NCBI GenBank assembly: GCA_023511585.1
Contig: JAIMBF010000031.1
Coordinates: 1-32,108 of the forward strand
Length of the DNA: 32,108 bases
Reading direction: 5' to 3'
Source: Terriglobia bacterium
GTDB lineage: Bacteria > Pseudomonadota > Alphaproteobacteria > Acetobacterales > Acetobacteraceae
Shown: positions 4,573 to 22,070 of the stretch, piece by piece
Layout of the letters: each line of letters starts with the position of its first letter
How positions within the stretch are numbered: position 1 is the first letter of the stretch
Program-made: the position numbers and the translations under genes
The notes under the pieces: generated by a model
Databases searched by the model: none
The model's input: the letters and a program-made list of their open reading frames with translations, nothing else
Told to the model about the DNA's origin: nothing

Positions 4573-4605
4573 CTCCCCCCAGCGAATCGGAGGAAACGGA
4601 CCAAT

Positions 4606-5187
4606 ATGGAAGAAGAACGGGGCAGCTCGTTTGGTTGCAAACTTGCGCGTCGCAGCATGCTGGGTGCATGCCTTGGCATGGTTCCCTGGCTTGCTCACGC
4701 CGATGAGACAAGTGGCCCCGCGGCTTCCCCCCCGCAGGTTGGCGATCGGCTGGTGTTCCTCACGGGTGAGAAAAAGGGGCAAGTCGTCAGGGTTGACGAT
4801 CTGCCCCTGGGTGGCCCGCAAGTGCAAGCCTACCCCCAAGATCCAAAAACCGGTGTCGTCCGCGACGGCTCGCGTCTCAATCTCATTATTCTCGCCCGCT
4901 TCGCGCCTGAAGACTTAAGCGAAGAAACACGTGCACGATCCGCGCACGGGGTGGTCGCCTATTCGGGCGTCTGCACGCATCAAGGCTGCCCGGTAAATAT
5001 GTGGTCAAATGAATTGCACGTGCTATTTTGTTCGTGCCATGGTTCTATGTATGATCCCAAGAATGGGGCGCAGGTGGTGGGAGGTCCTGCGCCGCGGCCT
5101 TTGCCCAGCCTTCCGCTAAAGGCAAACAGCGACATACCGGTGGTCGCTGCCGGGTTTACCGCCCGTGTCGGACCGGAACGATACTAA
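4606..5187 (+). CDS. Exported Rieske [2Fe-2S] protein, putative electron partner of the quinoprotein
   Basis: A 193-residue Rieske protein. Box I CTHQGC (123-128) and box II CSCHGS (142-147) carry all six conserved residues: C123, H125, C142 and H145 as cluster ligands, C128 and C144 as the disulfide. A twin-arginine-type leader (KLARRSMLG, RR at 15-16, hydrophobic core to AHA about 30-32) predicts folded export by Tat and either release into the periplasm or anchoring. It resembles the small Rieske subunits of the arsenite-oxidase/bc1 type. It is not next to cytochrome b or c1 genes, which argues against a bc1 subunit. The ribosome site is GGAGG before ATG 4606. The PQQ dehydrogenase starts 64 bases downstream on the same strand, so an electron-transfer partnership is likely but inferred. 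No molybdenum oxidase is seen. Confidence 0.9.
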   Translation: MEEERGSSFGCKLARRSMLGACLGMVPWLAHADETSGPAASPPQVGDRLVFLTGEKKGQVVRVDDLPLGGPQVQAYPQDPKTGVVRDGSRLNLIILARFAPEDLSEETRARSAHGVVAYSGVCTHQGCPVNMWSNELHVLFCSCHGSMYDPKNGAQVVGGPAPRPLPSLPLKANSDIPVVAAGFTARVGPERY

Positions 5188-5196
5188 ACACAAATG

Positions 5197-5213
5197 CGGC
5201 TCCTTGAGAGCCG
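5197..5213 (+). other. Intercistronic hairpin between Rieske and quinoprotein genes
   Basis: CGGCTC (5197-5202) and GAGCCG (5208-5213) form a six-pair stem around CTTGA, extendable by a G-U pair. No T tract follows (TAATAGTG), so termination is unlikely. A role in mRNA processing or stability, to raise expression of the downstream dehydrogenase, is possible. Confidence 0.4.
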
Positions 5214-5251
5214 TAATAGTGTTGAAAAATAACCAACTAGGGAGGTCAAAT

Positions 5252-6976
5252 ATGACAAAACTCTTCGCCCCCATGAGTCTCGCAGCCCTGCTGCTGGCAG
5301 GTACTGCCGCTGCAGCCTATGCAGCCTCGGATTATGCGCCGGTGACTGACGCTCGACTGGCCAATCCCGAGCCGCAGAATTGGCTGATGACCCGCGGGAG
5401 CTACAAGGGTTGGAGCTACAGCCCGCTGGATCAGATCAACACCAGCAACGTGAAGAATCTTGTCCCGGTGTGGACGTTCTCCACGGGTGTCGACTCCGGC
5501 CATGAATCACCGCCGATTGTAAACAACGGCATGATGTTCGTCTCCACCCCTTATAATCAGGTGATCGCGCTGAATGCCGCAACCGGTGAGCTGATCTGGC
5601 GTTACAAGCGGCCTCTCCCCGAAGGGTTTAGCGCGCTTCACAATACCAATCGCGGCGTTGCCCTATATGGAGACAAGGTCTATTTCGCTGCATTGGATGC
5701 CGTCCTGGTGGCACTGGATGCAAAGACCGGAAAACCCGCATGGGAAACCAAGGTCGCGGACTGGCACACCGGCTACTACATGACGATGGCTCCGCTCGTC
5801 GAGAAGGGCAAAGTACTCGTCGGCGTGTCGGGAGGCGAGTTCGGTGTCCGTGGCTCCGTTCAGGCTTTCGATGCAGAAAACGGCAAGCTCGTCTGGCAGA
5901 CCTACAGTGTTCCGGCACCGGGTGAACCCGGAAGTAATACGTGGGAAAAGCCCGATACCTGGAAGCGTGGCGGCGCCTCTACCTGGATGACCGGTAACTA
6001 CGATCCGAGCACCAATACTGTGTATTGGGGCACCGGGAATGGTTCGCCTTGGTTCGGCGATCAGCGGCCCGGCGATAACCTCTATACCGCTTCCACGCTC
6101 GCGCTTGATGGCGACACCGGCAAAATCAAAGGATATTTCCAGTATCACCAGAATGAATCCTGGGACTGGGATGCTATGAATGCGCCGATGCTCGTAGACT
6201 TCCAGAAGAACGGGTCCACCATCCATGGGCTGCTGAGTCCCCAACGCAACGGTTATCTCTATTGGCTGGAGCGCAAGTCAGACGGCAGCATCGGCTTTAT
6301 GAATGCCATGCGATACGTGAAACAGAACGTATTCAAGAGCATCGATCCGGAGACCGGCCGCCCGGTGGTGGATATGGATCACAAGCCGGGAACGGGCAAA
6401 GAGGCAAGCTTCTGCCCAAGCCTCTGGGGCGGCAAGGACTGGCCCTATGAAGCCTATAATCCGCAGACCGGCATGGTCTACGTCCCCTCCAACGATAACC
6501 ACTGCGGCCATATGAAGGGGACGGTGCAGGAATACGTTCCCGGGCAGTGGTGGACCGGTGTTGCTATCCCCGACATCGGCTTCACCGTCGATAAGAACGC
6601 CGCGTTCTATGGAGAAATCCAGGCTTTTGACGCAAATTCCGGCAAGCGCGCATGGCGCGTGCTCTATCCGAGCTCGATGATGTGGGGCTCGCTCTTGACC
6701 ACGGCCGGCAACCTCGTCTTCGGTGGCGGCACCAACGACCGAGAGTTCCGTGCCTACGATGCGCGCACCGGGGATCAACTCTGGCACTTCAAAACCAACT
6801 CCGCGATTATTGCTCCGCCTGCGACTTACGCGGTCGACGGCGTCCAGTACGTGGCCGTGCAGTCCGGATACGGCGTCGATCCAGCGTATCAGGAAGGACT
6901 GCTCTCCAACTTGCTGGGATGGCAAAAGGATATTCCGCAAGGCGGCGTGATTTGGGTGTTTACCCTCGGTCACTAA
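5252..6976 (+). CDS. Periplasmic PQQ-dependent alcohol dehydrogenase, lanthanide-type signature
   Basis: A 574-residue quinoprotein of the methanol/ethanol dehydrogenase family that oxidises alcohols (or aldehydes) in the periplasm with PQQ. The start is ATG 5252, preceded by AGGGAGGT; a signal peptide ends near AYAA (residues 22-25). Tryptophan-docking-type repeats of an eight-bladed propeller are visible (for example ALDAKTGKPAWE, AFDAENGKLVWQ, AYDARTGDQLWH). Active-site counterparts are E196 (GGEFGVRG), N263 (WGTGN) and D305 in SWDWD. D307, two residues after the catalytic Asp, is the residue that marks lanthanide-dependent enzymes (Ala, Ser or Thr in calcium types). The vicinal Cys-Cys of methanol dehydrogenase is absent: residues 128-131 read ALHN. 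C388 and C418 could form the other known disulfide. There is no cytochrome c domain, so an external acceptor is needed; the upstream Rieske protein is the candidate. Substrate unknown. Confidence 0.95.
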   Translation: MTKLFAPMSLAALLLAGTAAAAYAASDYAPVTDARLANPEPQNWLMTRGSYKGWSYSPLDQINTSNVKNLVPVWTFSTGVDSGHESPPIVNNGMMFVSTPYNQVIALNAATGELIWRYKRPLPEGFSALHNTNRGVALYGDKVYFAALDAVLVALDAKTGKPAWETKVADWHTGYYMTMAPLVEKGKVLVGVSGGEFGVRGSVQAFDAENGKLVWQTYSVPAPGEPGSNTWEKPDTWKRGGASTWMTGNYDPSTNTVYWGTGNGSPWFGDQRPGDNLYTASTLALDGDTGKIKGYFQYHQNESWDWDAMNAPMLVDFQKNGSTIHGLLSPQRNGYLYWLERKSDGSIGFMNAMRYVKQNVFKSIDPETGRPVVDMDHKPGTGKEASFCPSLWGGKDWPYEAYNPQTGMVYVPSNDNHCGHMKGTVQEYVPGQWWTGVAIPDIGFTVDKNAAFYGEIQAFDANSGKRAWRVLYPSSMMWGSLLTTAGNLVFGGGTNDREFRAYDARTGDQLWHFKTNSAIIAPPATYAVDGVQYVAVQSGYGVDPAYQEGLLSNLLGWQKDIPQGGVIWVFTLGH

Positions 6977-7076: not shown

Positions 7077-7529
7077 ATGATGCGATTCGCTTGCATGGGA
7101 CTGCTCGTAACGGCTTTCGCTTTTAGTGAAAGCATCGTTCTTCATGCCGCAGACCACCCCCCGGAGACCTGTGTGAATGCTCCCCAAAGCTGCCCATACG
7201 TGGTGGAAGCGAACGATGTGACCGCACATGTCGGTGAACATGCAGTCATGCTCGTCCGGCTACGACCGCGCGACGGGTATCGCGTTTTGGAAGCTTACAC
7301 CAATCGGCTGAGTCGATTCTCCTCGCTGGACGGCGCCGTCGCCTTTGATCGAAAGATGGTCGACGGGAAAGCCGAGGATGGGGCACTCGTCTTCGCCGTT
7401 GGTCTTACCCCCACAGCGCCGGGCCGGCACCCGATCAATGGTGTCTTCCGAGTTGGCTACATCCGGGATCCGGGAGAAATGTGGATGATTTCGGTCCCCT
7501 TGATCGCCAACGTCATCGGCGAGAAGTAA
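7077..7529 (+). CDS. Small exported protein, 150 residues, unknown function
   Basis: No family recognised. The start at ATG 7077 (or the next codon, 7080) is chosen because the following residues form a signal peptide (MMRFACMGLLVTAFAFSES, cleavage near VLHA-AD, residue 24); GGA lies seven bases before ATG. The mature protein starts with a cysteine pair (TCVNAPQSCPYVVE, C32 and C39) likely to form a disulfide, then a beta-rich region with HVGEHAVMLVRLRPRDGYRVLEAY and a final GVFRVGYIRDPGEMWMISVP. It looks like a small periplasmic beta-sandwich. It follows the quinoprotein behind a strong terminator and precedes the efflux operon by 76 bases. It could serve either neighbour or neither. The longer in-frame start at 6984 would overlap the terminator and is rejected. 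Confidence 0.75.
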   Translation: MMRFACMGLLVTAFAFSESIVLHAADHPPETCVNAPQSCPYVVEANDVTAHVGEHAVMLVRLRPRDGYRVLEAYTNRLSRFSSLDGAVAFDRKMVDGKAEDGALVFAVGLTPTAPGRHPINGVFRVGYIRDPGEMWMISVPLIANVIGEK

Positions 7530-7605
7530 ATACGGCAACGGGCCTCCGGCTCGGCTATGCTTGTTGGTTGCCACCCTTTCCCCGCCTCACGGGGGCCGAT
7601 CTCGG

Positions 7606-9075
7606 ATGTCTTTCTTGCGTGTTGTCGTTGCTTTCGGTTTCGGTGCCGCGCTCCTGGCAGGTTGCGCAAGCTACACGCCTGCGCCGCTGTCTCCGCAAGA
7701 GACCGCCGCGGCCATCCAAGCCCGTTCCCTCGATGATCCGAGACTTCGCAAGTTCGTCGCGGTCGCGTTGGCAGGGGAGAGCAAGCCCGCGCCTTGGGGT
7801 GAAACTGGCGAGCCATTCCCGTGGAACCTTACCACGCTCACATTAGCGGCGGTCTATTATCATCCGAGTCTTGATATCGCGCGGTCTAAGCTCGCCGAAG
7901 CGCGCGCCGCCGTGATGACCGCAAGGCAAATCCCCAACCCCTCGCTTTCTTTTGAAGAACTGAGCTACGCCCCCGGCCTTCCTGCGGGATCGGCCTGGAC
8001 CGTTGTTCCCCTGATTAACTTTCTTATCGAAACGGCCGGCAAACGCGGCTACCGCACGAAAGCGGCGAACGCTTTGGTCGAAGCGGCACGTGCCGATCTT
8101 GCAACGGCTTCGTGGCAGGTGCGCGGCGGCGTGCGCAAGGCTCTGCTGGATTTATGGGCGGCGCAGAACCGGCTTGCTTTGCTGCGGAAACGGCTTGATC
8201 TTCAAAACGAGCTGGTCGGGCTCTTGGAACATCGTCTGGCTGCCGGCGAGGTTTCGGCGTTGGATGTTGCCGTGGAGCGAAACAGCCGCAATCAGAGCGC
8301 ACTTCAGCTGCAAGACCTCACCCGTCAAGCCGTGGAGGCGGAAAGCGAGCTCGCAAGCGCTCTAGGAATCCCGCTGAAAGCGTTGGACGGCGTTCGCCTT
8401 TCTTTCGATGCCTTTGAAAAGCCGGAAGAACCAAGCCTCGAAGCTGCGCCCGGAAACCTGAGAGACGAGGCACTGCTCCATCGCAGCGATGTGCAAGCGC
8501 TCCTGGCCGAATATGCCGCGGCGGAATCACGGCTTGCGCTTCAGGTTGCCAATCAGTACCCCAATATCACCTTAAGTCCGGGATACGCTTATGTTGCGGG
8601 TCAGCATCAGTACTGGCTGCTTCCGGCCGCCGAGCTCCCGGTCTTTAACCAGAATCAAGGGCCGATTGCGGAAGCCAAAGCCCGCCGTGACGAAGCGGCG
8701 GCGCGCTTTATTGCTTTACAAACGCAAGTGATCGGGCAAATTGATGCCGGATGGGCCCGCTATCGCGCGGTTCATCACGCACGCAAAGCTGCCGAGGCGT
8801 TGCTTGCCGATGCGCGAGAGCGCGAGCACCGGATATTGCGGTCGTTTCAAGCCGGCGAGGTGGATCGCCCAAGCTTGCTTGTTGCCGAGATCGAACGCTT
8901 GAACGCCGAGCAGTCCCGCCTTGATACCATCGTACAAAACCATGAGGCGCTTGGCGCTTTGGAAGACGCCCTCCAACATCCTTTTTTTGGACCAGCGTTG
9001 CCGATAAACTCTGAAATCAATCCACGCCTTGCCGGAAATGACGGTGTGCACGAAAAGAGCCTTGCACTGCAATGA
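7606..9075 (+). CDS. RND efflux outer-membrane lipoprotein (TolC/CzcC-like)
   Basis: A 489-residue outer-membrane channel subunit of a tripartite efflux pump. A lipobox LAGC with C20 ends a short signal peptide, so the mature protein is predicted to be lipid-anchored. Two long helical repeats typical of the OEP family follow: LDIARSKLAEARAAVMTARQIPNPSLSF near 85-115 and QYPNITLSPGYAY near 320. The alpha-barrel helices are rich in Ala, Leu and Glu. ATG 7606 is chosen over the in-frame TTG 7561 because it begins the signal peptide; its ribosome site is weak and a CCCCG/CGGGG hairpin (7580-7594) lies just before it. The stop overlaps the adaptor start by four bases (ATGA), so the three genes are translationally coupled. 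Confidence 0.9.
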   Translation: MSFLRVVVAFGFGAALLAGCASYTPAPLSPQETAAAIQARSLDDPRLRKFVAVALAGESKPAPWGETGEPFPWNLTTLTLAAVYYHPSLDIARSKLAEARAAVMTARQIPNPSLSFEELSYAPGLPAGSAWTVVPLINFLIETAGKRGYRTKAANALVEAARADLATASWQVRGGVRKALLDLWAAQNRLALLRKRLDLQNELVGLLEHRLAAGEVSALDVAVERNSRNQSALQLQDLTRQAVEAESELASALGIPLKALDGVRLSFDAFEKPEEPSLEAAPGNLRDEALLHRSDVQALLAEYAAAESRLALQVANQYPNITLSPGYAYVAGQHQYWLLPAAELPVFNQNQGPIAEAKARRDEAAARFIALQTQVIGQIDAGWARYRAVHHARKAAEALLADAREREHRILRSFQAGEVDRPSLLVAEIERLNAEQSRLDTIVQNHEALGALEDALQHPFFGPALPINSEINPRLAGNDGVHEKSLALQ

Positions 9076-10130
9076 AGCGGAGCCGTTTGACAGTTCTTCT
9101 CACGCTTGTTGCTGCGCTCGGAATCGGCGGAATTGCGGTCTGGGGATTTCTGCAAGGCCGAAGCGAAGCCGCACGTGAGGCGCTCCGGGAACACCCAAGC
9201 AGGAAATTGCCTCGCGTCGCCATCGAGCAGGGCCAGCCGGTGATTGTTCTCGATCCTCTCTCGCAGAAAGAAAGCGGGATCGAGACGGCTCTTCCGCCCC
9301 CGGTACCCTACCAACAGCAAATTCGCGCCTATGCGCGCGTGTTAGACCTTACACGGTTGACCGAGCTTGCCAACGGTTACGCTGATGCACAGGCGCAACT
9401 TCAGGCGGCTCAGGCACGTCTTGCTTCGTCCGAGAAAGCGGTTGAACGTTCGCGGCTTCTTTATAAGGATCGCCAAAACGTTTCGCTTGCTCAGCTCCAG
9501 GCGAGCGAAGCCACGTTTCGCGTGGATCAAGCAGCACTCGCTGCTGCTCAGTCACGAACGCGCACGCTTGCCGCAACGGTCAAACTGGAATGGGGCCCGG
9601 TCCTTGCAAAATCTTTAGTGGAAGGATCGGAACTTCTCAACCGGCTTATGAACGGCCAAGCCATTCTCTTGCAAGTCACGCTGCCGCCCGGTGTTGTTCT
9701 TTCTTCGCCTCCGCTTAAGGCCACCATTGAGACCGGCAAAAATACTCTGGCTCCGATCCTCTTTGTGTCTTCCGCCCCACGAACCGACCCCAAAATTCAG
9801 GGCGTAAGTTTTTTCTACACTGCTTCGACGGAGAGTAATTTGCCTGCGGGTATGAACGTTCTTGCGTTTTTGCCATCCGGTCCGCAGGCAACGGGGGTAA
9901 AAATCCCGGATTCGGCGATTGTCTGGTGGCAAGATCGGGCATGGGTCTATCGCCGCATCCGCACAAACACTTTTGCGCGGATGGAAATCCCAACCGATCG
10001 GCCGACATCGGATGGCGGCTTTGTTATCAAGAGCGTGCCGGCGGAGATGGAAATCGTTACGCACGGTGCCCAATTGCTGCTTTCGGAAGAGTTTCGCGCA
10101 CAGATCCAGATGGGCGAAGAGGACGAATGA
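9072..10130 (+). CDS. RND efflux periplasmic adaptor (membrane fusion protein)
   Basis: A 352-residue adaptor linking the inner-membrane pump to the outer-membrane channel. An N-terminal membrane segment (residues about 7-28) acts as anchor or uncleaved signal. Residues about 101-165 form the alpha-helical hairpin (YADAQAQLQAAQARLASSEKAVERSRLLY and QLQASEATFRVDQAALAAAQ). Beta-barrel and membrane-proximal domains follow. The protein has no Met- or His-rich metal-binding N-terminus as seen in CusB or CzcB, so the cargo is uncertain. Its start overlaps the preceding stop (ATGA), and its own stop overlaps the pump start by four bases. No separate ribosome site is visible, which fits translational coupling. 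Confidence 0.88.
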   Translation: MKRSRLTVLLTLVAALGIGGIAVWGFLQGRSEAAREALREHPSRKLPRVAIEQGQPVIVLDPLSQKESGIETALPPPVPYQQQIRAYARVLDLTRLTELANGYADAQAQLQAAQARLASSEKAVERSRLLYKDRQNVSLAQLQASEATFRVDQAALAAAQSRTRTLAATVKLEWGPVLAKSLVEGSELLNRLMNGQAILLQVTLPPGVVLSSPPLKATIETGKNTLAPILFVSSAPRTDPKIQGVSFFYTASTESNLPAGMNVLAFLPSGPQATGVKIPDSAIVWWQDRAWVYRRIRTNTFARMEIPTDRPTSDGGFVIKSVPAEMEIVTHGAQLLLSEEFRAQIQMGEEDE

Positions 10131-13100
10131 CAGCCTCCGTCCTGCGCCACGGCCCTCAGGCTGCCCTTATTCACTTTTCCCTTCGCTTCCGCGGCATTGT
10201 GATCGCGCTTGCAAGCCTCCTCTTAGCCCACGGTCTCTATGCGTTGGGCCATGCCAAATATGATGCGTTTCCGGAATTTGCACCGCCGGAGGTCGTGATC
10301 CAGACGGAGGCCCAGGGGCTTTCCCCCGAACAGGTGGAGATCCTCGTCACGCGCCCCATCGAAAGTGCCTTGAATGGTATCTCCGGCGTGCAGAGCTTGC
10401 GCTCAACCTCCACTCAAGGTCTTTCCGTCATCACGGTTCTGTTCGGCCCCGGGAGCGATATCTATCGCAACCGCCAAGTCGTTGCCGAGCGCCTCGCCGG
10501 CATTCTCTCTCAACTGCCGGAGGGCGTAAATGAGCCGTCGATTACGCCGCTCACCACCTCATCGGCCCTGGTGCTGGTGGCCGGGCTTACATCGGAAACG
10601 CGCTCGCTCATGGATCTGCGTGCAGCGGTTGACTGGACCATCCGGCCGCGGTTGCTGGCGGTTCCGGGTGTGGCCGATATCGGCATTTTCGGCGGCGATG
10701 TGCGTTCCATCCAAATCGCCGTGCAGCCGGACCAACTGATCCGCTACGATCTCGGTTTTTCCGATGTGCTGGCAGCGGCCAAGCGCGCAACCGGCGTGCG
10801 CGGCGCGGGTTTCATAGAAACGAAAAATCAGCGAATCGTTCTCCAAACCGAAGGACAATCCCCAGGACCCACCGAGATCGCGCGCACCGTAGTCCGAAGC
10901 GATGCGACAGGAAGCATCACGCTCGGCAACGTTGCCGATGTTTACGAGGCACCGGAGCCGGCCATCGGCGGCGCGACCATCGATGGAAAGCCGGGCGTCG
11001 TTTTTAATGTATCCGAACAGTATGGCGCAAATACCATCGAAGTCACCGAAGCGGTGGAAGCAGCATTGCAAGAGCTGAAAGACGCACTTCAAGCCGAAGG
11101 CATTACCCTTCATTCCGGTCTGTTACGACCGGCGAATTTTATCATCAGCGCAACCCGCAATGTGGAAGCCTCGCTCGTGCTCGGCGGGATCCTCGTTATG
11201 GTGGTGCTTTTCCTCTTTCTCTTTGATCTGCGAATTGCGGCAATCTCCTGCATTGCGATTCCGCTTTCTCTGCTTGCTGCCACCATCGTGCTCGCAGCGA
11301 TGGGGGAGACGCTCAACACCATGACCCTCGGCGGCCTTGCGATCGCCATCGGGGTGGTGGTCGATGATGCCGTCATAGACGTAGAAAACATCGTCAGAAG
11401 ATTGCGCGAAAATCAGCGGCTTCCCGAGCCTCGCCCGGCCGCGCGCGTGGCGCTTGATGCCGCGCTGGAAGTGCGAAGCGGCGTTACCTATGCTACCTTT
11501 GCCATCATCCTGGTCGTGCTTCCGGTCATGGCTCTGCCGGGCGTTGCCGGGCGTTTGTTTCGGCCTCTCGGGCTTGCCTACACATTCGCCGTCTTGGCAT
11601 CGCTGCTTGTGGCGTTAACGGTAACGCCCGCGCTTTCGGTGGCTTTCCTTGCCGGGAAAAAACTTTCCCTCACGGATCCCCCTTTAATGCGGTGGCTCAA
11701 AGCCGGGTATGTGCGCGTGCTCGCAAGCGTCACGCAACGGACGGGCGTGCTGATCGCAGCCACCGGCTTGCTCACCATCGCGGGCTGCGCCGCGCTGCCG
11801 TTTTTCGGCGGCAGTTTCATACCCGAGCTAAAAGAAGGGCACTACGTCGTGCACGTGGCGGAAGTGCCCGGTACCTCCATGGCTGAATCGCTTCGCATCG
11901 GCACCCTCATCTCCAGCGCGCTCAAAGAATTGCCCTTTGTGCAATCGGTCGCGCAGCGCATCGGGCGTGCGGAATTGGCAGCCGATACTTGGGGGCCGAA
12001 TTACAGTGAGTTCGAGGTCGAACTCAAACCGGGGTTGTCGGGAGATGAAACGGAAGCCGCACAAGCCCAGATCCGAAAAATACTCGCGCGTTTCGTCGGA
12101 GTGAATTTCACCCTCAGAACGTTTCTGACCGAACGCGTGGAAGAAACCCTTTCGGGCTATTCCGCTCCCGTCGTCATAAAAATCTTCGGCAGCAATCTCG
12201 ATATTCTCAATCAGAAGGCGCTCGAGATCGCGCGCGTGCTGAACGAAGTGCCGGGCGCCACCGAGGTGCAGATTGAAGCGCCACCCGGCGTGCCTCAGCT
12301 CACCATTCATTTGCGTAAGCCCGATCTCGAGCGTTGGGGCCTGGATGCAACGGAAGTCCTCGACACCATTCGGATCGCCTATCAGGGGGAAACAGTCGGT
12401 CAGATCTACCGAGACGACCAAGTCTACAAGATCATTACCATCCTCGATCGCTCGCGCCGCGATCATATCGCGGAAGTCGGGGAACTGCCCTTGCGCACGT
12501 CTTTCGGCAGCTATGTTTTGCTTAAGCAAGTCGCCGATATTTACGAGGCTCCCGGCCGCTACCAAGTGGTCCACGAAGGCGCAAGGCGTGTGCAGACGGT
12601 CACCGCCAATGTTGCGGGCACCGACATCACCTCATTCGTGCAAGCCGCGAAAGCAGCCATTGCAGCCAAGGTTCAGCTCCCGCTCGGCACGTATATCCAG
12701 TTCGCCGGTGCCGCGGAAGCACGGGCAGCCGCTGAGCGTGATTTGATTCGGAACTCGCTGCTTGCGGTCTTCGGCATCGTTCTGCTGCTTTCGATCGTCA
12801 CCCGCAACTGGCGTAATCTTTTGCTGGTTTTGACAAACTTACCGTTTGCACTGGTTGGCGGCGTAGTGGCGATATTTGCGACCGGCGGCATCGTATCTTT
12901 AGGCGATATGGTCGGGTTTGTGACGCTTTTTGGCATCACCTTGCGCAATTCCATCCTGATGATCGCCCGTTACCAACACATGGTCGAAGTGGAAAGGGAA
13001 TCTTGGGGGTTCGATACAGCGATTCGCGGCGCTGCGGATCGGCTGACACCGATTCTCGTCACCTCCATCGTCACCGGCCTTGGAGTCTTGCCGCTTGCAA

Positions 13101-13267
13101 TCGGCGCCGGGGATCCCGGGCGTGAAATCGAAGGCCCCATGGCCATTGTCATTCTCGGCGGTCTGGTAACCTCCACAACGCTCAATCTTCTGGTGTTGCC
13201 CGGTCTGGCACTGCGATACGGCCGATTTGAAGCCAAAACGTCCGAAGACGAGGCTTGGGAGCTCTAA
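10127..13267 (+). CDS. RND efflux pump, CusA/CzcA-like (heavy-metal efflux family)
   Basis: A 1046-residue inner-membrane proton-driven transporter. The N-terminal helix (about 15-35) is followed by the first periplasmic loop beginning DAFPEFAPPEVVIQTEAQG, typical of the CusA/CzcA branch. Helices 2-6 span about 345-530, with GGLAIAIGVVVDDAVIDVEN (about 402-421) in TM4 containing the acidic residues of the proton path. A second loop and helices 8-12 follow (TMs about 860-1035). ATG 10127 was chosen because it overlaps the adaptor stop (ATGA); the open frame extends upstream inside the adaptor. The HME family exports Cu, Ag, Zn, Co or Ni, but some members of this subgroup have unknown cargo. 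The gene is complete and ends two bases from the convergent FAH-family gene. Confidence 0.92.
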   Translation: MTASVLRHGPQAALIHFSLRFRGIVIALASLLLAHGLYALGHAKYDAFPEFAPPEVVIQTEAQGLSPEQVEILVTRPIESALNGISGVQSLRSTSTQGLSVITVLFGPGSDIYRNRQVVAERLAGILSQLPEGVNEPSITPLTTSSALVLVAGLTSETRSLMDLRAAVDWTIRPRLLAVPGVADIGIFGGDVRSIQIAVQPDQLIRYDLGFSDVLAAAKRATGVRGAGFIETKNQRIVLQTEGQSPGPTEIARTVVRSDATGSITLGNVADVYEAPEPAIGGATIDGKPGVVFNVSEQYGANTIEVTEAVEAALQELKDALQAEGITLHSGLLRPANFIISATRNVEASLVLGGILVMVVLFLFLFDLRIAAISCIAIPLSLLAATIVLAAMGETLNTMTLGGLAIAIGVVVDDAVIDVENIVRRLRENQRLPEPRPAARVALDAALEVRSGVTYATFAIILVVLPVMALPGVAGRLFRPLGLAYTFAVLASLLVALTVTPALSVAFLAGKKLSLTDPPLMRWLKAGYVRVLASVTQRTGVLIAATGLLTIAGCAALPFFGGSFIPELKEGHYVVHVAEVPGTSMAESLRIGTLISSALKELPFVQSVAQRIGRAELAADTWGPNYSEFEVELKPGLSGDETEAAQAQIRKILARFVGVNFTLRTFLTERVEETLSGYSAPVVIKIFGSNLDILNQKALEIARVLNEVPGATEVQIEAPPGVPQLTIHLRKPDLERWGLDATEVLDTIRIAYQGETVGQIYRDDQVYKIITILDRSRRDHIAEVGELPLRTSFGSYVLLKQVADIYEAPGRYQVVHEGARRVQTVTANVAGTDITSFVQAAKAAIAAKVQLPLGTYIQFAGAAEARAAAERDLIRNSLLAVFGIVLLLSIVTRNWRNLLLVLTNLPFALVGGVVAIFATGGIVSLGDMVGFVTLFGITLRNSILMIARYQHMVEVERESWGFDTAIRGAADRLTPILVTSIVTGLGVLPLAIGAGDPGREIEGPMAIVILGGLVTSTTLNLLVLPGLALRYGRFEAKTSEDEAWEL

Positions 13268-19548: not shown

Positions 19549-20772
19549 TTACGTGCGCACCAAAGGACATGCTTTATCAACGGGCTGCCAGGCTTCATCC
19601 GCAGGCGTTTCCGCTATCAGTTTGTAATAATCCCACGCCCCCGAACTTTCTTGCGGCTTCTTTACCTCGAAAAGATAAACCGGCACCAGAAGTTGCCCGT
19701 CGGCACGGATGCGGCCTTTTCCGAATACGTCATCATCGGTCGGCATCGCCTTCATGCGTGCGACGACTGCTGCACCATCGGCTTTTGCCGTGCTTAGGCC
19801 GATATCGGCGACCGCCTTCAAATAATGCAACGTGCCGGCATAACATCCGGCTTGGATCATATTCGGAACGCGCCCGCCGAGTGCCTGGCGTACCTTCGCG
19901 GTAAACCGCCTTGTGCGGTCATTGAGATTCCAATAAAAGCTCTCGGTAAGAAGCAATCCCTGTGCTTGCTCGAGGCCGACGCCATGCACGTCGATGACTC
20001 CCATCAAAAGGGCCGCAACGCGCATCTTCGGGGTTAACCCGAACTCGTGCGCTTGCTTGATGCAATTAATGGTGTCGTTGCCGGCATTGGCTAACCCGAG
20101 AACTTTGGCTCCGGAAGACTGCGCCGCAAGCAAGAACGAGGAAAAATCCGTGGTGCCGGGGAACGGGTAGACGGAACGGCCGAGAACTTTCCCTTTTGCT
20201 TCGGTAACGAAGCGCGCGGTCATTGACTCAAGTTCGTGCCCGAACACGTAATCCGCAGTTACAAAATACCAGCTATCGCCTCCGGCTTTTACGGTATTCC
20301 CCCCGGTCGAGCGGGCAAGCATATAAGTGTCATAGGTAAAATGCACGGTATTCGGCGTGCACTGCTTGCCGGTCAGCGCCGTGGTTGCCGCTCCCGAATT
20401 TATAAAAACCTTGTTCTTCTCGCGACAAATGCTGTTGACCGCAAGCGCCACAGACGACGTCGGTACATCAATGATCATGTCCACGCCGTCCCGATCGAAC
20501 CATTGGCGCGCAATCGCCGCCCCGACATCGGGCTTATTTTGGTGGTCAGCCGCAAGCACCTCCACTTTAATGGCCTTGCTGGCGCTGAATTCCGCAGCGG
20601 CAACCTCCGTACAAATGCGCGAGCCCACGCCTGTATCATCACGGTAGGGACCGGATTGATCGTTCAGAACACCGATACGAATGACGGCGTCTTGAGCCTC
20701 TGTCCGGCGCGGATACGGCGCCAAAAGTGCTGCCCCCGAAGCAGAAAGAAAAAGGCGGCGAGAAAGATCCAT
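19549..20772 (-). CDS. ABC transporter substrate-binding protein, second of a tandem pair
   Basis: A 407-residue periplasmic binding protein (Leu/Ile/Val-type, type 1 fold). ATG 20772 is chosen because GAGGAG lies eight bases before it; the codon before it is only TTG. A twin-arginine-type leader (DLSRRLFLSASGA, RR at 5-6) precedes a mature start near AQDAVIRIGVLND. IGVLNDQSGPYRD, DHQNKPDVGAAIARQWFD, DVPTSSVALAVNSI, PGTTDFSSFLLAAQ and IKQAHEFGL are shared with the upstream paralogue. The two proteins clearly align along their whole length (roughly half to 60 percent identical by eye). The ligand may not be a branched amino acid; this binding-protein subgroup is often seen with aromatic or other organic-acid uptake, but this is inference. 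Confidence 0.93.
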   Translation of the reverse strand: MDLSRRLFLSASGAALLAPYPRRTEAQDAVIRIGVLNDQSGPYRDDTGVGSRICTEVAAAEFSASKAIKVEVLAADHQNKPDVGAAIARQWFDRDGVDMIIDVPTSSVALAVNSICREKNKVFINSGAATTALTGKQCTPNTVHFTYDTYMLARSTGGNTVKAGGDSWYFVTADYVFGHELESMTARFVTEAKGKVLGRSVYPFPGTTDFSSFLLAAQSSGAKVLGLANAGNDTINCIKQAHEFGLTPKMRVAALLMGVIDVHGVGLEQAQGLLLTESFYWNLNDRTRRFTAKVRQALGGRVPNMIQAGCYAGTLHYLKAVADIGLSTAKADGAAVVARMKAMPTDDDVFGKGRIRADGQLLVPVYLFEVKKPQESSGAWDYYKLIAETPADEAWQPVDKACPLVRT

Positions 20773-20793
20773 CAACCGTTCTCCTCGAATTGG

Positions 20794-22029
20794 TTATGCA
20801 TGAACGAGCGGACAACTTCCTTCATTGATCGGCCGGAATGCTTCGTTCGCAGGGATCTCCGCGAGCACGTTGTAATAATCCCAAGGTTCTTTGCTCTCCT
20901 CGGGCTTTTTCACCTCAAAAAGGTATGCCGGGTGAACGGCGCGGCCATCGGCGCGGATGCTACCTGGGCCGAATACATCATCGTCCATCGGCATCGCCTT
21001 CATGCGTGCAACCGTTTCCGCCCCGCTGCGTTTTGCCTCCACAACCCCCATGGCAGCAACCGTCTTCAGGTAGTGCAGGGTTGCCGCATAGCATCCGGCC
21101 TGCGCCATTCCCGGCCGAACGCCCGGCATCTTCGGCGCCACGCGCTCGCTGAAGGCCCGCGTGCGCGGGTTCAGGTTCCAATAAAACGTTCCACTGAGTA
21201 CCAGCCCCTGCGCGATCTGAAGGCCAAGCGCGTGAATATCGCTGATAAAGACCAAAAGTCCGGCAATCCGAGCCGTTTTGGTTACGCCGAACTCGTGCGC
21301 TTGCTTAATACAATTGATCGTATCGGTACCCGCATTGCATAATCCGATCACTTTGGCCCCTGAAGCCTGGGCCTGCAGCAAATAAGACGAAAAATCGGTG
21401 GTTCCCGGAAACGGCGTGTTCACGCTTCCGAGCACCTTGCCGCCGGCTTGAATAACGAAATTCGAGGTATCGCGCTGTAAGGCATGGCCGAACGCATAAT
21501 CGGCAGTGATAAAGAACCACGTGATGCCGCCGGCTTTAACCATTGCCGCTCCCGTGGCATGCGCAAGCATCCATGTGTCATAAGTCACATGAACGGTGTT
21601 CGGGTTACACAGCTTTCCCGTTAAATCCGAAGTTCCCGCTCCGCTGTCCATAAATACTTTGTCTTTCTGCCGCGCGACGGCAGAAACCGCAAGCGCGACG
21701 GAGGATGTCGGGACATCGACAATCATGTCCACGCCTTGGTCGTACCACTGTCGGGCAATTGCGGCACCGACATCGGGCTTGTTCTGATGATCGCCGAAAA
21801 TAACCTCAACCTCTATCCCTTTGTTAGAAGCCCCGAAATCTTGCAGCGCCTGTTGCGTACAGGCAACCGAGCCCATGCCGGTAATATCCCGGTAGGGGCC
21901 AGACATGTCGTTCAGCACGCCGATTCTGATTTTCGGTTTTGCTTGAGCCCGCGCATAAGTGATAGGAAGCGTCGAAGCAACGCCCGCCGCCGCCATCGAG
22001 CCGATAAGTTCACGCCGAGCTATCGCCAT
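20794..22029 (-). CDS. ABC transporter substrate-binding protein, first of a tandem pair
   Basis: A 411-residue periplasmic binding protein. ATG 22029 follows GAGGAG; the longer frame from 22062 lacks this site. The leader has RR at 5-6 (MAIARRELIGSMAAAG) and ends near YARA, suggesting Tat or Sec export. The mature protein has the type 1 periplasmic-binding fold with IGVLNDMSGPYRDITG, DHQNKPDVGAAIARQWYD and PFPGTTDFSSYLLQAQ. It is a paralogue of the next gene, 21 bases downstream, and follows livF by 41 bases. Having two binding proteins on one set of permeases and ATPases suggests either two related ligands or a recent duplication with diverging specificity. Only the family, not the substrate, can be stated. 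Confidence 0.93.
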   Translation of the reverse strand: MAIARRELIGSMAAAGVASTLPITYARAQAKPKIRIGVLNDMSGPYRDITGMGSVACTQQALQDFGASNKGIEVEVIFGDHQNKPDVGAAIARQWYDQGVDMIVDVPTSSVALAVSAVARQKDKVFMDSGAGTSDLTGKLCNPNTVHVTYDTWMLAHATGAAMVKAGGITWFFITADYAFGHALQRDTSNFVIQAGGKVLGSVNTPFPGTTDFSSYLLQAQASGAKVIGLCNAGTDTINCIKQAHEFGVTKTARIAGLLVFISDIHALGLQIAQGLVLSGTFYWNLNPRTRAFSERVAPKMPGVRPGMAQAGCYAATLHYLKTVAAMGVVEAKRSGAETVARMKAMPMDDDVFGPGSIRADGRAVHPAYLFEVKKPEESKEPWDYYNVLAEIPANEAFRPINEGSCPLVHA

Positions 22030-22070
22030 TTTCTCTCTCCTCAACGTGCCTTGCGCATGCAAGAACCGGA

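Follow-up and report, generated by a model that had tools for sequence, protein, structure and literature searches.

Type I PQQ dehydrogenases are textbook reducers of cytochrome c. How the electrons get out of PQQ, and what the Cys-Cys disulfide contributes to this, has long been a question. The locus described here poses that question again. In a stretch of 32,108 nucleotides from a bacterial contig (JAIMBF010000031.1; the whole stretch is referred to as the window), the sequence reads as a gene for a type I PQQ dehydrogenase directly preceded, in the same orientation, by a gene for a Rieske [2Fe-2S] protein. Which protein takes the electrons from this enzyme? Our best reading of the comparative data is that the Rieske protein would act as the dedicated electron acceptor of one clade of PQQ dehydrogenases.

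The gene pair in the window

An earlier note on the window had placed the Rieske gene immediately upstream of the dehydrogenase gene on the same strand, and both genes lie as it placed them (Table 1). The likely start of the dehydrogenase is the ATG at 5252, behind GGGAGG; a GTG further upstream, at 5165, lies within the Rieske gene. The dehydrogenase scores 579.9 bits against TIGR03075 (cut-off 480.05), and its closest solved structure, by sequence and by fold, is PedH (6zcv; TM-scores 0.85/0.86, 36% identity). PqqE is present in the source genome. The small protein encoded downstream has no Pfam match to E 1 and no NCBIfam match to E 0.001; same-strand homologues were seen at up to 5 kb from the PQQ gene in 13 of the 66 linked loci, a figure that includes duplicates and the window.

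Table 1. Features of the Rieske-PQQ dehydrogenase locus, in window positions
Feature	Position	Strand	Basis
Shine-Dalgarno-like GAGGAAA, Rieske gene	4590..4596	+	read in sequence
Rieske [2Fe-2S] protein, 193 aa, probably soluble periplasmic	4606..5187	+	PF00355, AlphaFold2 model
Tat-type signal: RR at residues 15-16, A-H-A ahead of residue 33	4606..4701	+	pattern reading, no signal-peptide predictor
Rieske motif 1 CTHQGC (ligands C123, H125; disulfide C128)	4972..4989	+	sequence and family alignment
Rieske motif 2 CSCHGS (ligands C142, H145; disulfide C144; H-bond Ser147)	5029..5046	+	sequence and family alignment
Short intergenic GC stem-loop; no T-run after the stem on the + strand	5197..5213		terminator scan: terminator-like on the - strand only
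Shine-Dalgarno GGGAGG, PQQ dehydrogenase gene	5240..5245	+	read in sequence
Type I PQQ dehydrogenase, 574 aa, Sec-type signal by eye	5252..6976	+	TIGR03075
HNTNRG clade signature, at the usual vicinal Cys-Cys place of type I enzymes	5639..5656	+	alignment
WDWD: catalytic Asp and second Asp of the D-x-D lanthanide motif	6161..6172	+	aligns with WDFD of PedH
Small secreted protein, unnamed family; third cluster gene in nearest relatives	7077..7529	+	homologues near PQQ gene

The Rieske protein carries the full C-x-H-x2-C ... C-x-C-H-x-S set, an RR motif and an A-H-A site, in line with the earlier description of a complete protein with a Tat-type signal, in which export itself is pattern-based. 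It scores 37 bits against Pfam PF00355 (cut-off 20.3), and its AlphaFold2 model has a mean pLDDT of 89.1. The top PDB fold match of the model is the Thermus thermophilus Rieske protein 1nyk (TM-score 0.93 on the target, rmsd 1.6, 44% identity), and the Thermus thermophilus type (1nyk, 3fou) is also the closest solved Rieske protein by sequence (E 2e-40). The chain of 3fou, which we take to be from Thermus thermophilus, has a nearly equal score and carries the name of a quinol-cytochrome c reductase subunit. The T. thermophilus protein is 44% identical to the window Rieske protein, and many linked family members are at 40-43%. Because the former is as similar as these and 3fou is named as a reductase subunit, the Rieske sequence alone is no predictor of the partner.

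We take the roles of the cluster ligands (C123, H125, C142 and H145), the disulfide (C128 and C144) and the hydrogen-bonding Ser147 over from bc1 Rieske proteins. The ligand and disulfide set is kept in 73 of 74 family members, the sole miss (L097) being a wrong-frame reading, and ligands, disulfide and hydrogen-bonding Ser/Thr are kept in all 73 sequences in the correct frame, which speaks for a redox function. For the signal, eight of the 74 sequences fall outside the expression used; among the 66 that fit it, [RK]R with a hydrophobic run is found in 65, an A-x-A type site in 63 (by a permissive expression, which is not a cleavage predictor) and both together in 62. The Rieske protein is probably soluble and periplasmic, and its Tat signal would be cleaved.

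The window Rieske protein falls below the cut-offs of the curated models for bc1 Rieske proteins (NF050121, 96.7 vs 275; TIGR01416, 44.6 vs 97.4) and for AioB (TIGR02694, 52.3 vs 95.65). Inspection of the window ORFs by eye revealed neither a cytochrome b nor a cytochrome c1 gene. In the source genome a cytochrome b/c1/Rieske cluster (named by eye) lies apart, on another contig, which makes it unlikely that the window protein is the bc1 subunit of this genome.

Linkage and co-occurrence of the two genes

The absence of linkage in other genomes had been set beforehand as the outcome that would refute the proposed pairing. We find that the linkage is conserved: 70 of 74 distinct Rieske proteins adjoin a PQQ dehydrogenase piece (at least 50% identity, within 1.5 kb, same strand), in a sample that includes loci from the best 80 of 560 confirmed loci. 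Within this sample, 65 of the linked loci are Rieske-first and five are PQQ-first (including L073, in which a short PQQ fragment also follows the Rieske gene), which argues that it is the association that is kept and not one frozen order. The four unlinked Rieske genes consist of two that are cut by contig ends and two second copies (L048 and L113, the latter being one locus with L055). From the best 80 of 560 loci, 47 (L071-L117) were used and 28 (L123-L150) were left out of the counts; the remaining five (L118-L122), which come from haloarchaea and actinobacteria, gave no PQQ match when searched. L060 (genome G022), at about 34-37% identity, was left out of the 74, and no PQQ gene was seen near it. 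Genes in the loci of relatives were called by codon score.

The same pattern is obtained from the side of the dehydrogenases. For all 67 members of the clade, a same-strand Rieske gene lies no more than 1.5 kb away; this holds for two of 43 other PQQ dehydrogenases, both of which adjoin a Rieske-PQQ pair. The co-occurrence that the earlier note proposed to examine is also found, with the Rieske and PQQ clade genes present in the identical 12 of 398 phylum genomes (at most three candidates were scored per genome); eight of these 12 belong to one genus, and the 12 are therefore not independent. Among 150 family genomes, the PQQ clade occurs in 17, all within the 18 that have the Rieske gene. The distances between Rieske proteins and those between their PQQ partners correlate (r = 0.68 for 54 pairs, L097 being left out for its wrong frame; the highest of 2000 permutations was 0.18), but any co-inherited operon gives such a value. 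According to record titles in the best 80 of 560 loci, the pair occurs in Rokubacteria MAGs and in three proteobacterial classes (Alpha-, Beta- and Gammaproteobacteria). The identity of the 12 genomes and the linkage at 70 of 74 loci rule out a pairing by chance or artefact.

Cytochrome c genes near the PQQ dehydrogenases

The statement that no cytochrome gene is present holds for the window, in which a six-frame CxxCH scan (frames of at least 60 aa) gave no credible cytochrome c gene, and with it the possibility that the gene finder had missed one is rejected. Three CxxCH frames were found, with coding scores of -23, -35 and +5, the last being antisense to the PQQ gene. Across the wider sample, a same-strand CxxCH gene lies within 1.5 kb of two of 68 clade members vs 17 of 43 other PQQ dehydrogenases (Fisher p = 9e-7), and flank lengths are alike in the two groups. 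In the source genome, five of the seven other PQQ dehydrogenase loci adjoin such a gene. These counts exclude matches to 2Fe-2S subunits (one each in L056 and L059) and an opposite-strand case (L107). The two clade cases are a neighbour of a paralogue (L089) and the cut start of a 1089-aa frame (L153). An absent haem-motif neighbour is weak evidence when taken alone, since 26 of the 43 other enzymes also have none within this distance.

An altered PQQ pocket in a single clade

The PQQ and metal ligand residues E196, N263, D305, R332 and R134, whose roles we assign from the PedH alignment, are present in all 67 clade members. The alignment places the vicinal Cys-Cys in none of the 67 Rieske-linked enzymes vs 38 of the 43 others, and the motif H-x-T-[NSK]-R-G in 67 of 67 vs none of 43. 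Six residues (H130, T132, Y176, W306, W392 and D543) are fixed in 66-67 of the 67 and found in at most one of the 43. The PQQ pocket itself is altered in the clade, which goes beyond the earlier claim. WDWD is found in 62 clade members, the window included, and WDWA in five; given its D-x-D motif, the window enzyme is probably lanthanide-dependent.

The partnered dehydrogenases form one clade, with the 67 and 43 rows split by one change (SH-aLRT 99). A more careful tree, built after nine long-branch rows had been removed and the clade rows thinned from 67 to 35, separates these from 34 others with support of 100/100. Clade rows were picked by profile score (more than 700 bits to A2, a profile built from linked members). 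L172, a row close to PedH (1154 bits to 6zcv), groups with the 43 others.

Proposed route and its alternatives

We consider it likely, judging from sequence comparison, that the pair forms the core of a periplasmic alcohol-oxidation module leading from the PQQ dehydrogenase to the Rieske protein and on to a general acceptor, with the aldehyde passed to a partner enzyme. The dehydrogenase, probably with a lanthanide, would oxidise an alcohol to an aldehyde, and reduced PQQ would hand its electrons one at a time to the [2Fe-2S] cluster of the soluble, Tat-exported Rieske protein, which would occupy the seat that XoxG, MxaG or ExaB-type cytochromes have with other type I enzymes. From the Rieske protein the electrons would pass to a general periplasmic acceptor (a cytochrome c of the pool, cytochrome c1 or an oxidase), and the aldehyde would be oxidised by a cytoplasmic NAD enzyme of the AldA type or by a Mo/2Fe-2S AldGH-like enzyme. 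The direct transfer from PQQ to the Rieske protein, the substrate class and all steps past the Rieske protein are what we infer. The non-cytochrome route of the earlier note is supported in part: its core, a Rieske pairing in place of a dedicated cytochrome, has strong backing in the conserved linkage, the shared set of genomes, the single clade of partnered enzymes and the few cytochrome c genes beside them.

An alternative to which we leave a small but real chance is that the PQQ dehydrogenase reduces a pool cytochrome c encoded elsewhere, and that the Rieske protein is an accessory for another donor or acts further downstream, for instance as a substitute bc1-type Rieske. This would fit the source genome, which has a cytochrome bc1-like cluster and in which a CxxCH gene adjoins five of the seven other PQQ dehydrogenase loci; it would also fit the cluster motif and best fold match of the Rieske protein, both of the bc1 kind, as well as the 26 other PQQ dehydrogenases that have no nearby haem-motif gene either. 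The near-exclusive same-strand linkage to one dehydrogenase clade argues against it, as do the separate Rieske beside cytochrome b in the source genome and a signal that, by its pattern, resembles that of a cleaved soluble protein and not that of an anchored bc1 subunit. We regard it as improbable that the Rieske protein mainly serves a Mo/2Fe-2S aldehyde dehydrogenase, replacing the cytochrome subunit of AldFGH. The neighbour count (71 loci, 66 of them linked) includes the loci that supplied queries and at least four duplicates (L041/L071, L043/L072, L056/L098 and L070/L104). It places an AldA-type or Mo aldehyde dehydrogenase within 5 kb in 38 of the 66 linked loci, so that the two-protein module of the earlier note stands as a conserved pair but often has more members. 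A Mo subunit is among these neighbours in 21 loci, and the one tested (L045) has as its best PDB match the aldehyde dehydrogenase large subunit of 8gy3 (E 2e-81), presumably AldFGH of acetic acid bacteria. In eight Mo-bearing loci (L044-L046, L049, L051, L054, L056 and L059) no CxxCH frame was seen other than the 2Fe-2S subunits in L056 and L059. On the other side, 45 of the 66 loci have no Mo subunit within 5 kb (some contigs end sooner), 18 have the AldA-type NAD enzyme (one of them together with a Mo subunit) while the PQQ gene is constant, and the Mo pair of the source genome lies on another contig. We therefore reject a carrier for the neighbouring Mo enzyme only; the earlier view that the Rieske lacks bc1 or Mo-oxidase partners is correct for the window and does not extend to the 21 Mo-bearing loci.

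Constant linkage would also fit if the Rieske protein helped to mature or stabilise the dehydrogenase and were not an electron carrier, in a role like that proposed for MxaJ/XoxJ, and inspection of the window ORFs by eye showed no XoxJ-like gene; the intact cluster residues in every correct-frame sequence speak against such a role, which we consider very unlikely. We give least credence, hardly any, to a shared operon by history only, in which the two genes are passed on as a unit and their products have no functional contact. Inheritance can preserve operons and horizontal transfer would move both genes, but this sits poorly with the range of taxa from three proteobacterial classes to Rokubacteria MAGs, the two gene orders and the variable other neighbours.

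The Rieske protein as dedicated acceptor can be extended to a wider reading that we put forward tentatively and, taken as a whole, rather doubt. The clade may represent a haem-free class of type I quinoproteins, in which the remodelling of the PQQ pocket (Cys-Cys lost; His-x-Thr, Tyr176, Trp306 and Trp392 fixed) would have gone together with the replacement of cytochrome c by a soluble Rieske protein as partner. In the Mo clusters one Rieske protein might collect electrons from both oxidation steps, and alcohol would go to carboxylate via iron-sulphur carriers without a dedicated cytochrome. Because the clade holds both lanthanide-type (WDWD) and calcium-type (WDWA) enzymes, the partner switch would be independent of the metal.

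No description of a Rieske-PQQ dehydrogenase pairing was found in the open-access literature, most subscription journals being outside the scope of the search, nor in passages of PMC5023235, PMC11102522, PMC11996626, PMC10715153, PMC4013037, PMC9038741, PMC8963497, PMC12314914, PMC10654088 and PMC11052242. A clade without the disulfide and with a constant Rieske neighbour, found in several proteobacterial classes and Rokubacteria MAGs, provides a natural experiment on the exit of electrons from PQQ. If the Rieske protein is the acceptor, Rieske proteins would gain a new job, lanthanide metabolism a new electron route, and bioelectrocatalysis a simple soluble pair of enzyme and acceptor.

Comparison with known systems

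PedH/ExaF (6zcv) shares with the window enzyme the fold, the metal ligands, the catalytic Asp and the D-x-D motif, but the two are only 36% identical and PedH has Cys-Cys where the clade has His-x-Thr; PedH is not known to have a Rieske partner. The T. thermophilus Rieske protein (1nyk, 3fou) is the nearest solved relative by sequence and by fold, and differs from the present family in the cleavable-type Tat signal (by pattern) of the latter and in that no cytochrome b was noticed by eye in the window. The bc1 Rieske subunit has its [2Fe-2S] ligands and disulfide in common with the window protein, for which the curated bc1 models are below cut-off.

In arsenite oxidase AioAB, a Rieske protein serves a periplasmic oxidoreductase, from which electrons go on to cytochrome c. 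The AioAB complex with cytochrome c552 (8ed4) is among the fold-search matches of the Rieske model; the AioB model itself is below cut-off, and the enzyme partner in AioAB is a molybdenum protein, not a quinoprotein. AldFGH contains a cytochrome c subunit, unlike the eight Mo-bearing clusters, in which none is seen. Azurin and amicyanin are non-haem acceptors for quinohaemoprotein alcohol dehydrogenase and methylamine dehydrogenase, but they are copper proteins, and their enzymes carry a haem domain or TTQ in place of the haem-free type I PQQ fold. In XoxF/XoxG, MxaF/MxaG and ExaA/ExaB, a periplasmic type I PQQ enzyme has a small c-type cytochrome partner encoded nearby, whereas the neighbour in the present clade is a Rieske protein and not a dedicated cytochrome c.

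Conserved linkage and co-occurrence of the two genes

The Rieske and PQQ dehydrogenase genes are separated by 64 bases; the window makes up a single contig of a genome of 3.14 Mb in 201 contigs. The GTG at 5165, chosen as dehydrogenase start in a mechanical ORF list, is unlikely because it overlaps the Rieske gene.

Features of the gene pair and its surroundings
Feature	Position	Product or description	Context
Rieske protein gene	4606-5187	193 residues	good ribosome-binding site
Stem-loop	5197-5213	without T-run on the + strand	between the Rieske and PQQ genes
PQQ dehydrogenase gene	ATG 5252, stop 6976	574 residues	good ribosome-binding site
Small secreted protein gene	7077-7529	about 150 aa, without Pfam match	downstream of the PQQ dehydrogenase gene
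Outer-membrane/RND metal-efflux set	7561-13267	outer-membrane factor, adaptor and CusA/CzcA-type RND pump	downstream of the small secreted protein gene
ABC-transporter substrate-binding protein genes	19549-22062	two, adjacent and related	flanked by permease-like and ATPase-like genes (by eye)

From genomes within the family we fetched 21 loci (L041-L060 and L070), and from a genome-wide scan the best 80 of 560; the 47 nearest of these 80, together with loci from a phylum search, brought the set to 74 distinct Rieske proteins. The linkage that the earlier note described in a single genome is conserved in others: 70 of the 74 Rieske genes lie on the same strand beside a PQQ dehydrogenase gene, which is just 3' of the Rieske gene in 65 and just 5' in 5. 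Four have no PQQ dehydrogenase within 1.5 kb; two of these loci are cut by contig ends (L047 and L112) and two are second copies (L048 and L113) in genomes that also hold a linked copy (G077 and G093). Seen from the enzyme side, a same-strand Rieske gene is present within 1.5 kb in all 67 members of the Rieske-linked dehydrogenase clade, and a Rieske gene is in range of only 2 of the 43 other PQQ dehydrogenases compared, in both cases because a linked pair adjoins them. Among the best 80 of 560 scan loci, hosts of the pair include Acidisphaera, Bradyrhizobium, Azohydromonas, Leptothrix, Zoogloea, Denitromonas, Hydrogenophaga, Glaciimonas, Variovorax, Neptuniibacter, Pseudoalteromonas and Rokubacteria MAGs.

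Co-occurrence, which the earlier note had named as a check on the pairing, bears it out. Phylum-wide, the clade dehydrogenase (at least 56% identity, E up to 5e-214) and the Rieske protein (E up to 2e-51) occur in the same 12 of 398 genomes, 8 of which belong to one genus and are therefore not independent; the next-best matches drop to 43% identity and E 2e-16, respectively. Any PQQ dehydrogenase (E 1e-60 or better) is found in 94 of the 398, and the 82 that lack the clade also lack a strong Rieske match. Within the family (150 genomes), all 17 genomes with the clade dehydrogenase (at least 54% identity) are among the 18 with the Rieske protein (E up to 2e-37), the sole exception being G073, where the Rieske gene lies at a contig end.

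The local arrangement varies. Two Bradyrhizobium loci (L073 and L074) have the order PQQ dehydrogenase, small secreted protein, Rieske, and L073 carries an additional short PQQ dehydrogenase fragment 3' of the Rieske gene. In the nearest relatives, the gene for the small secreted protein seen in the window comes third in the cluster, and 9 of 10 sequences in an alignment of its family share a G-x-H-P core; different small secreted proteins take its place in other sub-clades (L051 and L057). The stem-loop between the two genes might tune their relative expression.

A distinct clade of PQQ dehydrogenases

The dehydrogenase is a type I PQQ enzyme that scores above the curated model cut-off, and its nearest structure is PedH. 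In a tree of 110 PQQ dehydrogenases, a single branch (SH-aLRT 99) parts the 67 Rieske-linked enzymes from the 43 others, with the near-PedH sequence L172 among the latter; rows were put in the clade according to their profile scores, and only then was the presence of a Rieske neighbour verified. A more careful tree of 35 clade and 34 other rows, with nine long-branch rows left out, gave the same split at 100/100. All 67 members keep the metal and PQQ residues that an alignment with PedH identifies. The WDWD motif includes the second Asp found in lanthanide enzymes; WDWA takes its place in five of the 67 (L151, L152, L153, L087 and L103), which are calcium-type by motif. The vicinal Cys-Cys, a disulfide that packs on PQQ, is present in 38 of the 43 others vs none of the 67, and H-x-T-[NSK]-R-G is found in all 67 vs none of the 43; Y176, W306, W392 and D543 are nearly exclusive to the clade. 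The pocket change from Cys-Cys to H-x-T may serve a different electron exit.

A same-strand CxxCH gene (70-300 residues) lies within 1.5 kb of 2 of 68 clade members vs 17 of the 43 others (Fisher p 9e-7, related rows not being independent), with the available flank alike in the two groups (median 3000 vs 2931 bases). Of the two clade cases, the gene in L089 belongs to a paralogue next to the clade member, and the one in L153 is the truncated beginning of a 1089-residue frame. Of 7 further PQQ dehydrogenase loci in this genome, one of which is a fragment at a contig end, 5 have a CxxCH gene next door, and in a relative (L050) Rieske-linked and cytochrome-linked enzymes lie within 10 kb of each other. 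However, 26 of the 43 others also have no CxxCH gene nearby.

The Rieske protein and its role

The cluster motif of the Rieske protein is of the bc1 type and comes with the two cysteines of the disulfide and with a Ser and a Tyr that form hydrogen bonds. The cluster and disulfide set is retained in 73 of 74 family members, and the remaining one was read in a wrong frame. Among the 73, Thr stands in for Ser in 2, and at the Tyr position 27 have Tyr and 46 have Phe. The N-terminus has an RR motif, a short hydrophobic run and A-H-A, and pattern matching, rather than a signal predictor, finds [RK]R in 65 of 66 family sequences, an A-x-A-type site in 63 and both in 62, 8 of the 74 falling outside the expression used. 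This suggests that the signal is cleaved and the protein soluble. The AlphaFold2 model (mean pLDDT 89.1) best matches the Thermus thermophilus Rieske 1nyk (rmsd 1.6, 44% identity), and the protein is under the cut-off of the curated bc1 Rieske, b6f Rieske and AioB models. Another Rieske of the genome sits with cytochrome b and c1 in a separate cluster (L069, named by eye).

A molybdenum aldehyde dehydrogenase subunit lies within 5 kb of the linked dehydrogenase at 21 of 66 loci (duplicates and query loci included), an AldA-type NAD aldehyde dehydrogenase at 18, and either at 38; the absence of Mo-oxidase partners, as the earlier note had it, thus holds in the window and not at these other loci. 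The three AldA-type proteins checked pass NF007497 (713-756 bits, cut-off 500), and the one compared with the PDB matches AldA entries of E. coli (E 5e-191); for the one Mo subunit compared, the closest match is the aldehyde dehydrogenase large subunit 8gy3 (E 2e-81). Combined, these neighbours say that the predicted pathway runs from alcohol to aldehyde to acid. AldA of E. coli is a lactaldehyde/glycolaldehyde enzyme, which makes diols candidate substrates of the PQQ dehydrogenase. PqqE is present in this genome, and so, on another contig, is a Mo pair that shares 71-72% and 82% identity with the pair of L045. A sigma-54 activator akin to that of the cluster in genome G542 is within 5 kb at 14 of the 66 loci, G542's own included.

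The simplest account, supported by the linkage, its exclusivity, the clade identity and the preserved cluster ligands, is that the Rieske protein would be the dedicated acceptor of electrons from the reduced PQQ dehydrogenase. The two proteins co-vary (r 0.68 over 54 pairs), as any co-inherited pair would. That the partner is not dictated by the Rieske sequence alone is evident from the two second copies that stand alone and from the resemblance to the Rieske protein of Thermus. In L048 (7063-10470) the lone copy is near genes for a Bax1-I family membrane protein and cytochrome oxidase subunit I (by eye), a possible hint to the acceptor of the Rieske protein; a pump 66% identical to the RND pump of the window lies about 4 kb from it. 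In the part of the open-access full-text literature that was searched, we found no account of this pairing. What appears to be new is a type I quinoprotein dehydrogenase whose neighbour is a Rieske protein and not a cytochrome.
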